The notes beneath the pieces were generated by a model. The model had not been told where the DNA came from and made no database searches. It saw only the letters and a program-made list of their open reading frames with translations. Of a stretch of DNA of 64,000 nt, positions 3,315-64,000 are shown in pieces (position 1 is the stretch's first letter; each line of letters starts with the position of its first letter). The position numbers and the translations under genes were made by a program. Origin of the DNA: Chthoniobacterales bacterium (lineage in GTDB: Bacteria; Verrucomicrobiota; Verrucomicrobiia; Chthoniobacterales; DASVRZ01); contig JBDSQB010000016.1 in the NCBI GenBank assembly GCA_039930045.1, positions 62,001 through 126,000 on the forward strand. The letters are read 5' to 3'.

Positions 3315-3908
3315 ATGTTTACCGGAATCGTCGAAGAAATCGCCCAGGTGCAATGGTTGCGTCGCACCGCCAAGAGCACCCAGCTCCTCCTCACCAGCCG
3401 CTACGGCAAACGCGTCAAACGCGGCGACAGCGTCGCCATCAACGGCGTCTGCCTCACCGTCACCTCGCATCGCGACGACCAGATCGGATTCGAACTCCTC
3501 GAAGAAACCCTCAGCCGCAGCAACCTGCGCGACGTCAAACCCGGCTCCCACGTCAACGTCGAACGCGCCATGCGGGCCAGCAGCCGCATCGACGGACACC
3601 TCGTCCAAGGCCACGTCGATTGCGTCGGCACCGTCGCTTCCTTTGAGCAACAAGGGGCCGATCACCGGCTCGAAATCCTGTTTCCGCCCGACTTCAGCCA
3701 TTACATCGCCTTCAAGGGAAGTATCTGCGTCAACGGCGTCAGCCTCACCGTCGCCGAAGCGGGTGAATCGAGCCTCGTCTGCTGGATCATCCCCTTCACC
3801 TTTGAAAACACCAACCTGCGCCACCTGCAAAGCGGCGAAACGGTGAATCTGGAATTCGACATTCTCGCCAAATACGTTGAGCGCATGTTGATCCGCCGCG
3901 AAGGCTGA
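3315..3908 (+). CDS. ribE: riboflavin synthase, alpha subunit
   Basis: A 197-residue enzyme that dismutates two molecules of 6,7-dimethyl-8-ribityllumazine to riboflavin. It starts with the invariant MFTGIVEE and has the two lumazine-binding barrels in tandem: GDSVAINGVCLTV near residue 36 and GSICVNGVSLTVAEA near 135. The HLVQGHVDCVGTV block sits between them and a C-terminal helix promotes trimerisation. Length is as usual (about 200-215). It stands alone, without other rib genes. Its TGA stop is followed in the same frame by an open 21-bp repeat array (3918-3990). Confidence 0.95.
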   Translation: MFTGIVEEIAQVQWLRRTAKSTQLLLTSRYGKRVKRGDSVAINGVCLTVTSHRDDQIGFELLEETLSRSNLRDVKPGSHVNVERAMRASSRIDGHLVQGHVDCVGTVASFEQQGADHRLEILFPPDFSHYIAFKGSICVNGVSLTVAEAGESSLVCWIIPFTFENTNLRHLQSGETVNLEFDILAKYVERMLIRREG

Positions 3909-3917
3909 CTAAATAGC

Positions 3918-3990
3918 GGCGTCAAGGGACTAAGTATTGGCGTCAGAGGACTAAGTATTGGCGTCAGGGGACTAAGTATTGGCGTCAGCC
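3918..3990. repeat. 21-bp tandem repeat array, three full units plus partial
   Basis: Three consecutive 21-bp units start at 3918, 3939 and 3960, followed by a partial unit at 3981. The consensus is GGCGTCAGGGGACTAAGTAT plus a final T; units differ at only one or two positions near bases 8-9. The array is bracketed by a 7-bp inverted repeat, GGCTGAC at 3903-3909 and GTCAGCC at 3984-3990. It lies between the convergent 3' ends of ribE and the M20 deacylase gene, whose stop codon falls inside the partial unit. Read in the ribE frame it gives heptads of the form GVRGLSI with no stop. Two other arrays of the same period occur in this window. Confidence 0.95.
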
Positions 3991-54128: not shown

Positions 54129-54794
54129 CTACCCCTCGCGCAACTTCCCGCCCGTCACATAATACATCGCCTGACGCTGCAACTCGTGACCCGTCCGCAG
54201 CCCCAGCTTGTCCTTGATCTTGCCGCGATAGCTTTCCACCGTCTTCACACTCACCCGCAACTCCGCCGCCACCGTCTTCGTCGCCGCGCCGCCGCCGATC
54301 AGTCGAAAAATTTCCAGCTCCCGTCGCGTCAACGACTCCACCCCATTCGACCGCAACTCCACCCCGCCCGACGCCAGATTTTCCAGCAGCAAACTCTCCA
54401 CTTGCGGACCCACCATGCGCCGCCCCTCCGCCGCCTCCAGCATCGCCCCGAGCAGCGCCGACACCGGGTCCAGCCGCGTCACATACCCCAGCGCCCCCGC
54501 CTGCAACGCCCGTTGCACCGTTGTCGCATCCGCCTGCCCGGTAAACACCACCACCCGCGTCGCAGCCGACCACTGGGGCAAGTCCTGGATCAGCGTAAAC
54601 CCATCCGCCAGCACCGCATCGAGCACCAGCAAACCCGGCTGCCATTTCGCGCAAAGATCGCGGGCCGACCGGGCGCACGCCGCCTCCGCGCACACCTCCA
54701 ATCGGTCATGCGCCTCCAGTAAATGACGCACCCCCAGCCGGGCCATCGGCTCGGCATCCGCCACCACCACTTGGATTTTTTTGGACTTAGGCAT
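54129..54794 (-). CDS. LuxR/NarL-type response regulator with variant receiver
   Basis: A 221-residue regulator: receiver (1-120) plus a LuxR helix-turn-helix (about 150-210; LTRRELEIFRLIGGGAATKT, VSVKTVESYRGKIKDKLGL). The phospho-acceptor is D59 (LLVLDAVL). The upstream acidic pair is D13 and E15 in ADAEP rather than adjacent Asp residues, and the conserved Lys of strand five is replaced by Arg (GYVTRLDP). So phosphorylation may differ from normal. No kinase is adjacent. The minus-strand gene precedes dsbD by 54 bases; its 5' side opens on a 21-bp repeat array. Confidence 0.87.
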   Translation of the reverse strand: MPKSKKIQVVVADAEPMARLGVRHLLEAHDRLEVCAEAACARSARDLCAKWQPGLLVLDAVLADGFTLIQDLPQWSAATRVVVFTGQADATTVQRALQAGALGYVTRLDPVSALLGAMLEAAEGRRMVGPQVESLLLENLASGGVELRSNGVESLTRRELEIFRLIGGGAATKTVAAELRVSVKTVESYRGKIKDKLGLRTGHELQRQAMYYVTGGKLREG

Positions 54795-55030
54795 ACATCC
54801 CCTTTCAAAAACAGCAATTCGCTGATCCGTTCCTAATCCAATCGATGAGAAAACGGCAACGTAAATAATCAGCTTTTTTCTTAATCCCGAGAAACCCCGC
54901 TTCCGGCAAGCCTGAAAGGAACTTCAGCCAAGCCCCGATTACAGGTCTCTGCGATTTCTGTTTTCATCCATCCATGCCCCCACCTCGGATCAACATCGCC
55001 TCCGCAATGCGCTCCGGCTGGACCATTTTT

Positions 55031-55270
55031 CCGCACGGTGAAATCGTCCTACCGCACGGCGGAGCTTTTTCAGCGGAGTTGGGGACGATTCTACCGCACG
55101 GCTGGAGAGTTTCACTGCACGGTCAGACCATTCCACCGTGCGGAAGAACCGCCCTGCCGCACGGTCGGCCCCTTTCACCGCACGGCAGAATCTCCCAACC
55201 GTGCGGCAGAATGATTCCACCGTGCCGGAAAATCATTTCACCGCGCCGAAAAACCGCTCTACCGCAGTAA
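55031..55270. repeat. 21-bp tandem repeat array, 12 units with CCGCACGG core
   Basis: Units start at 55031, 55052, 55073, 55094, 55115, 55136, 55157, 55178, 55199, 55220, 55241 and 55262, every 21 bp without exception. Each has an 8-bp core, CCGCACGG or its exact reverse complement CCGTGCGG (units 6 and 9; units 3, 10, 11 and 12 degenerate), then 13 variable bases. Core arms CCG/CGG are palindromic around a CA or TG. It lies in the divergent region between the LuxR-type regulator (54794, minus) and the 55326 gene. On the plus strand it is open as a heptad peptide with PHG every seven residues, from an ATG at 54974; I do not call that a gene. The upstream part, 54795-55030, shows nothing else recognisable. 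Confidence 0.97.
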
Positions 55271-55325
55271 AACACCCTCCAACGCCTCCCAAACACCCGC
55301 AAACCAACTCCAACACCCGTTCCTC

Positions 55326-60793: not shown

Positions 60794-62680
60794 ATGCATC
60801 ATCAACGCAGCAAAACTCTTGGACTTTCCCTCGCGGCGCTGGGCGTGGTCTATGGCGACATTGGCACGAGCGTGCTCTATGCCTTTAAGGAATGCCTGCA
60901 TCACGGGTTGCAGACCACTCACGAGATCATTGGCGTGCTCTCGCTCATTATCTGGACGCTGTTTCTCCTCGTGGGCATGAAATATCTCGGCCAGATCATG
61001 CGGGCCGATAACCAGGGCGAGGGCGGCATTCTCGCGCTGCTTTCCCTGACGGGTCCAAAGGGCCAGCCGCGCCTCGGCCGCTCCGGCTTGGTGATCGTGG
61101 CCGTGGGCATCGGCGGCGCGGCGCTCTTGTATGGCGATGGAGTGATTACCCCCGCGATCTCGGTCTTGTCGGCGGTGGAAGGTTTGCTCATCGCCACGGA
61201 GAAACTCAGCCCATTCGTCGTGCCGCTGACGCTGGGGATTCTCGTTGGATTATTCGCGCTCCAATACAAGGGCACGGGGTTGATCGGGAAATTTTTCGGG
61301 CCCGTCATGCTGGTCTGGTTCGGCACGTTGGCGGTGTCGGGCATCATTCAAATCACCAATCATCCCTCCGTCCTGCACGCGCTCAATCCGCTGGAGGGTT
61401 TCCAGTTTCTGATCCATCACGGCAAGGCCGGATTGGTCATCATGGGCAGCGTTTTCCTCGTCGTCACCGGCGGCGAAGCACTCTATGCCGACATGGGACA
61501 TTTCGGGCGCAAACCCATCGCCATCGCGTGGAATTGCCTCGTTTTTCCCGCACTCATCCTGAACTACCTCGGGCAGGGCGCACTCGTCCTCACCAACCCT
61601 GCGGCGCGGGAAAATCCTTTCTTCTTCATGGTGCCCGAGGCGCTGCTTTATCCGCTTGTCGCCCTGGCCACGGCGGCCACCATCATCGCCTCCCAGGCGC
61701 TCATCTCCGGGGCATTCTCCTTGACCATGCAGGGCATTCAGATGGGCTACATCCCGCGGATGGAAATCCTCCACACCTCGCAGGAGGAGCACGGGCAAAT
61801 CTACATTCCGAAGCTCAACATCATGCTCGCCATCGGGTGCGCGGCGCTCGTTCTCACCTTCCAGAGTTCCACCGCACTGGCCAGCGCCTACGGCATTGCG
61901 GTCACCCTGACCATGCTCTCGACCACGTTCCTTTTCTACTTTGCCTCGCAGCAACTCTGGGGCTGGCACTGGGTGCGATCCGTCATTTTCTGCGCCCTCT
62001 TCGGCTCGCTGGAGCTGGTTTTCTTCGCGGCAAATTCCTTGAAAATCCTCCACGGCGGCTGGTTTCCGCTCGTCGCTGGCGCTCTCATTTTCACGATCAT
62101 GACCACTTGGAAAACGGGTCGCCAGATTTTGCAAAGCCGGCTCTCACCTGGCATGCCGCTAGATGATTTTATCTCCTCCATCAGCCTCGCCGGAACGCTC
62201 TCCGAGGAGAACAAACTGCATCGCAGCCACGGCACGGCCATCTTTCTCGCGAGCAATCCCGTAGGCACTCCCAATGCCTTGGTGAAGAACATCAAACACA
62301 ACCAAGTCGTCCACACGCGCAATATTTTCCTCACCATCCTCACCGACAAAAGCCGCGCCTACGTGCCCGTCGAGGAGCGTGCGGAAGTGTCGGATCGCAC
62401 CGAGGGCTTCTGGCGCGTGGTCACGAGTTTCGGCTTTATGGAGAGCCCGCACATCGCCGAAGTCGTGCGCGCCGCCAAGGAAAAAGGGCTCATCATCCAG
62501 CCCGAGCGTACCACGTTCTTCGTGGGCAAAGAGCGCATCGTCGCCTCCGGCAAACCCGGCATGGCGCTCTGGCGCGAGCATCTTTTCGTCTTCTTGAGCA
62601 AACACTCCGAGAACGCCGCCGACTTCTTCCAGCTCCCGCCCGACCGCGTTTACGAAGTCAGCCAGGTCGTGGAGATCTGA
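60794..62680 (+). CDS. kup: potassium transporter Kup
   Basis: A 628-residue inner-membrane K+:H+ symporter. It opens TLGLSLAALGVVYGDIGTSV, with the family's GDIGTS motif, and has ADNQGEGGILALLSL near 78, GDGVITPAISVLSAVEGL near 114, and TGGEALYADMGHFGRKPI near 233; about twelve membrane helices and a cytoplasmic C-terminal domain. Length fits (about 620-660). The start at 60794 is bounded by these motifs. After its TGA the same frame stays open for about 72 codons through a 21-bp repeat array. Confidence 0.95.
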   Translation: MHHQRSKTLGLSLAALGVVYGDIGTSVLYAFKECLHHGLQTTHEIIGVLSLIIWTLFLLVGMKYLGQIMRADNQGEGGILALLSLTGPKGQPRLGRSGLVIVAVGIGGAALLYGDGVITPAISVLSAVEGLLIATEKLSPFVVPLTLGILVGLFALQYKGTGLIGKFFGPVMLVWFGTLAVSGIIQITNHPSVLHALNPLEGFQFLIHHGKAGLVIMGSVFLVVTGGEALYADMGHFGRKPIAIAWNCLVFPALILNYLGQGALVLTNPAARENPFFFMVPEALLYPLVALATAATIIASQALISGAFSLTMQGIQMGYIPRMEILHTSQEEHGQIYIPKLNIMLAIGCAALVLTFQSSTALASAYGIAVTLTMLSTTFLFYFASQQLWGWHWVRSVIFCALFGSLELVFFAANSLKILHGGWFPLVAGALIFTIMTTWKTGRQILQSRLSPGMPLDDFISSISLAGTLSEENKLHRSHGTAIFLASNPVGTPNALVKNIKHNQVVHTRNIFLTILTDKSRAYVPVEERAEVSDRTEGFWRVVTSFGFMESPHIAEVVRAAKEKGLIIQPERTTFFVGKERIVASGKPGMALWREHLFVFLSKHSENAADFFQLPPDRVYEVSQVVEI

Positions 62681-62734
62681 GTCGAGTTCCAATCGATTCT
62701 CCGCGCGGAGCAGAAAACTAGTCCACTGAACGCG

Positions 62735-62890
62735 AAACGTCTTTTTGGGGCCTGTAAACGTCTCCACGCGGTGGGTAAACGGCTGCCGCAGGGTAGAAAA
62801 CGTCTGCGCACACCCCGGAAACGTCTCCGAGTGGGCTGCAATCGTCTTTTTGCCCCAAGTAAACGTCTTTGGGACGCCCGAAAGTCGCTT
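62735..62890. repeat. 21-bp tandem repeat array with AAACGTCT core
   Basis: Seven units start at 62735, 62756, 62777, 62798, 62819, 62840 and 62861, each 21 bp: an 8-bp core AAACGTCT (unit 3 AAACGGCT, unit 6 AATCGTCT) and 13 variable bases; an eighth at 62882 is degenerate. The array fills the space between kup and the convergent helicase gene. Read in the kup frame it makes heptads beginning KRL, without a stop until 62897-62899. Read on the minus strand it makes heptads with ETF or KTF. Confidence 0.95.
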
Positions 62891-62895
62891 TCGGG

Positions 62896-64000
62896 TTAGC
62901 CCGAGACGACGACGCTGAGTTTTTTGCCTTTGAACTCGATGCCGTTGAGCTTTTTCAGGACGGACGTGAGCTGACTTTCAGCGATATCGATCAAAGTCGC
63001 GTGGTCCTGGAGAATGATCGCGCCGATGTTTTCCTTTGGGATCTTGGAGGCGCCAGCGATCACGCCAACGAAGTCGCCGGGGAAGACGCCGTCGTCCCGG
63101 CCGATGTTGAATTTGACGCGGGTCATGCCTGGCTCGTGGGAGAGCGGCTCGGCGTTGTCCATGTTTTTGCGGCGTTTGGAGGGGCCACGATCTTCGAATT
63201 GATCGCCGCCAGCAGGCCGGTCGCTGAAGGTTTCTTCGCGGCGTTCGCGGCGATTGGCTGGCGGGGCGACGCGGGCACCTTCATAACGTGGATATTCGCG
63301 CTGGCCGCCGCCGAAGTTTCCCTGCGGACGATCATCTCGGGAAAAGCCGCGATCTCCACCGCGCTCGGGACGCTGCGGGCGATCCTCAAAAATGGGCTCA
63401 GGGTTTTGCTCGGAGTTGAGCAAGTGAATGAGGGCCGATGCGATGTCCGTCGGCTGGTGCCCTTGGGACAGGAGTCGGTCGATGAGATCGTCGTGTTTCT
63501 TGTATTTGCCGCCTTCGAGGGTCTCGCGCAGGGTGTCGAAGAAGACGTTGACGCGCTTGACCTCGACCTCGTCGGCAGACGGGATTTTTTCCCGGCGGAT
63601 CTGGCTTTTGGTGAAACGCTGGATGTTTTGCAGTTTGTAAACTTCGCGGCCGGCCACAAACGTAATCGCGCGGCCCGTGCGCCCGGCGCGTCCGGTGCGT
63701 CCGATGCGGTGAACGTAATCCTCGCCGTCGTGCGGCAGATCGTAGTTGAAGACGACTTCGATGTCGTCCACGTCGAGACCGCGCGCGGCGACGTCCGTCG
63801 CCACGAGAAACTCGATCTGGCGCTTGCGAAATTTATTCATCACCCGCTCACGGAAAGCCTGGGAAATGTCGCCGTGCAATTTATCGGCGGAATAGCCACG
63901 GGCGACGAGGTGATCGGTGAGTTCGTCGCACATCATCTTGGTCGCGCAGAAAATGATGCCGAGCTTGATGTCCTGGAGATCGATCAGGCGGCAGAGGACT
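62896..64000 (-). CDS. DEAD-box RNA helicase, C-terminal part (gene cut by window edge)
   Basis: The minus-strand frame runs open to the right edge, so only the C-terminal about 368 residues are seen. Helicase C domain: [37 protein letters not shown], and motif [18 protein letters not shown] basic, Arg/Gly-rich linker follows, then a DbpA-type RNA-binding domain at the end ([20 protein letters not shown], then [15 protein letters not shown]). This resembles DeaD/CsdA of ribosome assembly and cold adaptation. The N-terminal ATPase domain lies outside the window. An ATG at 63936 is internal, not the start. Confidence 0.9.

Follow-up and report, generated by a model that had tools for sequence, protein, structure and literature searches.

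An array of 21-bp units in strict register precedes an orphan gene in the 64,000-nucleotide stretch of a Chthoniobacterales genome analysed here (the window), and arrays of the same period lie upstream of nearly all homologues of that gene that could be compared, almost every one with a core sequence of its own. Such arrays suggest a kind of phased DNA-binding array that has not been described before. Our tentative reading is that they are tandem operators in helical phase, each for a dimeric DNA-binding protein private to its locus, which would control the gene downstream.

The features of the window that matter here are the following:

54129–54794, minus strand: divergent Response_reg + GerE (LuxR-type) gene
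55031–55275, no strand: 21-bp phased array of 12 units with a palindromic CCG-YR-CGG core (7 exact, 4 degraded, 1 without a core)
55276–55325, plus strand: C/A-rich, G-poor leader, from the array to the start codon
55326–56021, plus strand: orphan gene of family 1 (231 aa, helical N-terminal part and C-terminal Fn3 fold), with the array upstream
62722–62889, no strand: second 21-bp array, core AAACGTCT, filling the gap between convergent genes

The array at 55031–55275

The array is an indel-free run of twelve consecutive 21-bp units starting at 55031, with a lag-21 identity of 0.58 (210 bp) against at most 0.46 in this stretch for the other periods between 15 and 39. It ends about 50 bp before the 55326 gene and begins about 235 bp from the LuxR-type gene. 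The first-pass annotation had described twelve units at exactly 21 bp, each with an 8-bp core. The number and the spacing stand, but the exact core, CCGYRCGG, is present in seven of the twelve units: as CCGCACGG at 55031, 55052, 55094, 55157 and 55178, and as CCGTGCGG at 55136 and 55199. Four units carry degraded cores (CTGCACGG at 55115, CCGTGCCG at 55220, CCGCGCCG at 55241 and CCGCAGTA at 55262), and unit 3 (55073, GCGGAGTT) has none. Both core forms do occur in fixed phase, as had been noticed, but a palindrome whose central dinucleotide varies describes them better than a core that reverses its orientation. The dyad reaches TTTCACCG-YR-CGGTGAAA, which is most of the unit, with CA, TG or CG at its centre, and its symmetry exceeded that of all 300 column permutations (z 4.4).

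By itself, CCGYRCGG is found at chance level in the 64 kb (10 occurrences against 12.4 expected), and seven of the ten are in the register of the array. Among 57 genomes (its own and 56 relatives of the order), the three-unit core pattern was found at this locus only; the wider architecture emerged via the neighbouring gene instead. The idea of a shared CCGCACGG motif is not supported, nearly every array having a private core. A control search with the reversed pattern, GGCRYGCC at 21-bp spacing, gave 15 matches in one relative (G014), perhaps another large array.

A link to the LuxR-type regulator is not supported either. At the other loci fetched, no homologue of this gene adjoins the array, which speaks against such a regulator as a general array partner; the gene at 54129–54794 is probably a mere neighbour, outside the module.

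Arrays at related genes and elsewhere in the genome

The 55326 gene belongs to a family (family 1) with no match in Pfam, NCBIfam or PADLOC and no homologue among phage or plasmid records. In the predicted structure (pLDDT 91.8), the N-terminal part is made of helices and the C-terminal part is an Fn3 sandwich. The gene is under purifying selection, the variable sites of five orthologues being distributed 17/13/91 over the three codon positions. Family-1 proteins are mostly acidic, with a median pI of 5.4, although the pI is about 8 in the N-terminal part of the window protein. Reading the genes as a defence system was rejected on the PADLOC result; one cargo gene encodes an FRG-domain protein and the L106 array precedes an HTH_3/Peptidase_M78 gene, which is too little for a defence claim.

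At least 300 bp of upstream sequence was available for 51 family-1 loci, drawn from the window's order, other genomes of the phylum and Verrucomicrobiota MAGs (with labels such as Chthoniobacteraceae, Spartobacteria, Prosthecobacter and Verrucomicrobiaceae; the named MAGs with family 1 come from one sub-branch). Upstream of the gene, 21 was the best period at 50 of these loci, L012 being the exception, as against 3 of 50 downstream; the loci are related, some of them orthologues, and do not represent 51 independent events, and the detection of periodicity is biased towards arrays of more than about six units. Examples of the private cores are ACCA-N4-TGGT (L007), GAGCGCTC (L015), GTTG-N4-CAAC (L010) and GGTA-N4-TACC (L059 and L061 to L064), and further loci have GGGGTG or GGGGGC cores with inverted units near the gene. 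A protein 66% identical to that of the window (L004) goes with a different core, and three close paralogues (L061, L066 and L078, 84–86% identical) have unrelated ones. L035, from another family of the class, encodes a protein 53% identical to the window protein, and its array, which spans about −294 to −85 relative to the gene, also has the ACCGCACGG core. The 40 nt before the ATG average 39 percent A, 37 percent C, 9 percent G and 15 percent T over the family. In many of the MAGs (L059, L061–L083), a W-rich in-frame leader peptide, MNWDxGxWDSGxWDQPSDYF, is encoded between the array and the family-1 gene, and a small MPFDPTKPANN gene lies downstream. Contigs often end at most about 200 bp upstream of the family-1 gene or within it (L060, L069, L071, L074, L086, L087, L089–L091 and L093–L095), as if broken by arrays or by population variation.

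A second, unrelated gene family is also preceded by arrays. Its member in this genome (L102:5609–6346) gave an all-helical model for which a fold search returned no significant match; the homologues L122, L125, L127, L128 and L129 likewise have an upstream array, and the distant homologues L123 and L124 have no upstream array. Neither family adjoins the arrays at L106, L109, L111, L116 and 62722–62889, the last of which is flanked by convergent genes at 60794–62680 (plus strand) and 62896–63936 (minus strand). A 484-kb sample of this genome, partly picked around known arrays, contained ten non-coding arrays with a 21-bp period, and their cores differ except in the duplicated pair L102/L130. 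A less biased 300-kb stretch (contig C2) contained four, which extrapolates to roughly 45 arrays per genome. In the samples from other genomes, the period-21 matches were partly coding repeats (L151, L162 and L163).

Five orthologous arrays from related MAGs allow the constraint on the units to be followed. Core arms vary half as often as spacers (16 of 104 sites against 38 of 117), 21 of 52 loop sites are variable, spacers and loop change at rates near those of third codon positions, and the register is kept over 13 units without indels. Within arrays, the columns are unevenly conserved (median chi-square 33.3, 20 degrees of freedom); singly, only 12 of 45 arrays reach p < 0.01, and the window array (34.0) falls below that. 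Two conservation peaks per helical turn were considered and rejected, lag 10 not being raised (−0.03). The first-pass annotation had held that core and spacing are selected and not merely duplicated, and had named a lone expansion and equally conserved spacers as outcomes against this. The sequence comparison supports the selection claim: relatives with the 21-bp period exist, and the spacers are less conserved than the cores.

The duplicated pair L102/L130 is 89.7% identical across array and gene, and the two arrays differ by exactly one 21-bp unit. Homology ends at the stop codon of the gene, different genes lie beyond, and a second homologous block follows these and ends at its own stop codon. 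The array and gene copies (L102:3300–6861 and L130:5709–9253) face a conserved neighbour, and exactly between the two stop codons each has a different 1.65-kb gene swapped in, an FRG-domain gene in one copy and a gene for a 472-aa protein in the other.

Candidate functions of the arrays

What would such arrays do? As tandem operators, they would offer about a dozen sites, one per two helical turns, on a single face of the DNA. A dimeric DNA-binding protein would presumably cover the array cooperatively, and once bound would set the expression of the gene just downstream, be it 55326 or its counterpart. The spacing would be common to the class and the recognised sequence private to each locus, so that every array would have its own putative binder; units would be gained or lost whole, and array and gene could be copied together as a module. 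Many of the cores are dyads, and the arms of a unit vary independently of each other (Stouffer z −0.49, 46 tests), as expected of half-sites read by a dimer. The spacing is an integral number of helical turns, at 21 bp, at 50 of the 51 family-1 loci. The arrays before the second gene family, the constraint on the core arms between species and the difference of one whole unit between L102 and L130 also speak for operators. A dimeric protein bound along one face, in line with the earlier suggestion, fits both the dyad and the absence of covariation within units. Dyad symmetry is clear in the window and in many other arrays, and absent in L102, L109, L111 and L116, which counts against operators. 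So do the position of some arrays at the 3' ends of genes (62722–62889, for example), the dozens of specificities that dozens of private cores would require, and the 22-bp period of the L150 array. It is doubtful that the downstream family-1 protein binds its own array, because the family is mostly acidic and close paralogues have unrelated cores, although the core shared by L035 and the window array is a hint of such a link. In a broader scheme, possible if rather unlikely, some Verrucomicrobiota would have a chromosome-wide addressing system of dozens of intergenic arrays, in which common machinery reads the spacing, rapidly diversifying factors read the private sequence as the address of the locus, and the orphan helical/Fn3 and all-helical genes are the main clients.

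Other explanations must be weighed against tandem operators. The array could be transcribed as a 5' leader, with a chain of RNA hairpins or a long rod controlling translation or stability of the downstream mRNA. This is unlikely, even though the array lies upstream of a G-poor, unstructured-looking leader, dyad arrays have strong folding z-scores (window −5.6 and −8.9; L007, L085), forward units are followed by inverted ones near the gene in several MAGs, and one unit has changed in both arms at once (GGGA..TCCC) in each of the five orthologues. Hairpins, however, do not need an exact 21-nt period, some arrays are away from 5' ends, and no Rfam match was obtained at the gathering threshold; the RNA explanation is further weakened by the four non-dyad arrays, which fold no better than shuffles, and by the missing covariation of the arms. 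We also regard as distinctly unlikely a mobile or recombining module with the array as its recognition end, the repeats being bound by a transposase or recombinase that moves array and gene. The copying of both to another contig, with homology ending at the stop codon and other genes beyond, would agree with this, as would the patchy distribution of family 1, its several copies per genome and the existence of arrays without the genes. Yet ordinary recombination also explains the single duplication, the orthologous arrays are stable across species, terminal repeats and target duplications are not established, and neither the surroundings of the window array nor the L102/L130 module showed a recombinase or transposase.

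Neutral tandem duplication and decay, in which chance or the replication machinery fixes the period, would make the arrays ordinary minisatellites. Recent expansions do occur (L054, L055, L058 and L083, with units 96–98% identical), a whole unit was gained or lost between L102 and L130, and gene-linked arrays are often found at contig ends. Such an origin is nevertheless improbable and already disfavoured: the period of 21 goes with unrelated sequences at 50 of the 51 homologous loci, and the columns, instead of decaying uniformly, are unevenly conserved, with arms that are constrained between species. Even less probable, and indeed hardly credible, is that the array encodes heptapeptide repeats, 21 bp being seven codons. 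Open frames cross several arrays (98 aa at 54974–55270, for example), but there is no codon-position signal (spread 0.186 against 0.251 for permuted data); variable sites of the orthologous arrays are distributed 28/27/20 by position modulo 3, against the strong third-position excess of the adjacent gene, and coding heptads were rejected on this lack of bias.

Relation to known systems

In our judgement, no known kind of repeat pairs a class-wide fixed phase with locus-private sequence. We know of no precedent for a general phase combined with a locus-private recognised sequence, and no description of the array class was found in the open-access literature. Plasmid replication iterons, which sit at origins beside rep genes, are likewise direct repeats that measure about two helical turns and adjoin a gene, with sequences specific to the replicon. 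Unlike iterons, the arrays occupy numerous intergenic loci of chromosomal contigs in one genome, and the gene does not encode a Rep protein, having neither a Pfam match nor a homologue in plasmid records. With sopC-like partition centromeres, which consist of 43-bp repeats and go with partition genes, the window array shares about a dozen tandem repeats and an inverted-repeat core, but neither 43-bp repeats nor partition genes are present here.

BvgA, a regulator of the NarL/FixJ family, has been shown by test to occupy one DNA face with dimers spaced 22 bp apart (PMC7250471). The resemblance lies in a row of head-to-head dimer sites that recur after two helical turns, on one face and upstream of a gene, and in the tolerance of diverged sites, those of BvgA being weak (PMC7250471). 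BvgA, however, is one regulator with one motif and six sites at 22 bp, whereas the arrays have a 21-bp period, up to 25 units, private cores and putative binders. If the operator reading is right, the parts of the array act like known tandem operators. The GTAG/CGTC REP elements, which have been reported in Verrucomicrobia, are palindromic repeats that occupy many intergenic sites in a genome (PMC3733652). They have a family sequence in common and occur scattered, as single copies or pairs (PMC3733652), in contrast to the private sequence and fixed spacing of the arrays; the core unit pattern of the window occurred at this locus only in the 57 genomes. TAACTGA direct repeats are reported to form more than 100 intergenic sets in one Beggiatoaceae genome and are of unproven function (PMC4679880); they have one shared heptamer, as opposed to private cores at fixed 21-bp spacing here. 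CRISPR arrays have conserved repeats of 24–48 bp (PMC3733652) and unique spacers, which the array of the window does not match, with a total period of 21 bp and a core of 8 bp.

A shared sequence is what normally identifies bacterial regulatory and repeat families; in the arrays, the conserved features are the 21-bp phase and the location ahead of particular orphan genes. Because each locus has its private sequence, searches by sequence miss the class. Should proteins bind the arrays, nature would provide numerous operator arrays that differ in specificity, on which the evolution of tandem phased sites could be tested directly; if they are mobile, they belong to an unrecognised class of elements.

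The period is not always 21, since a relative has a strong array with a 22-bp period and a GGGGTG core (L150:841–1209). In the window, four near-identical 21-bp units (GACTAAGTATTGGCGTCAGGG) at a gene end (3907–3988) look like a young tandem duplication with the same period.
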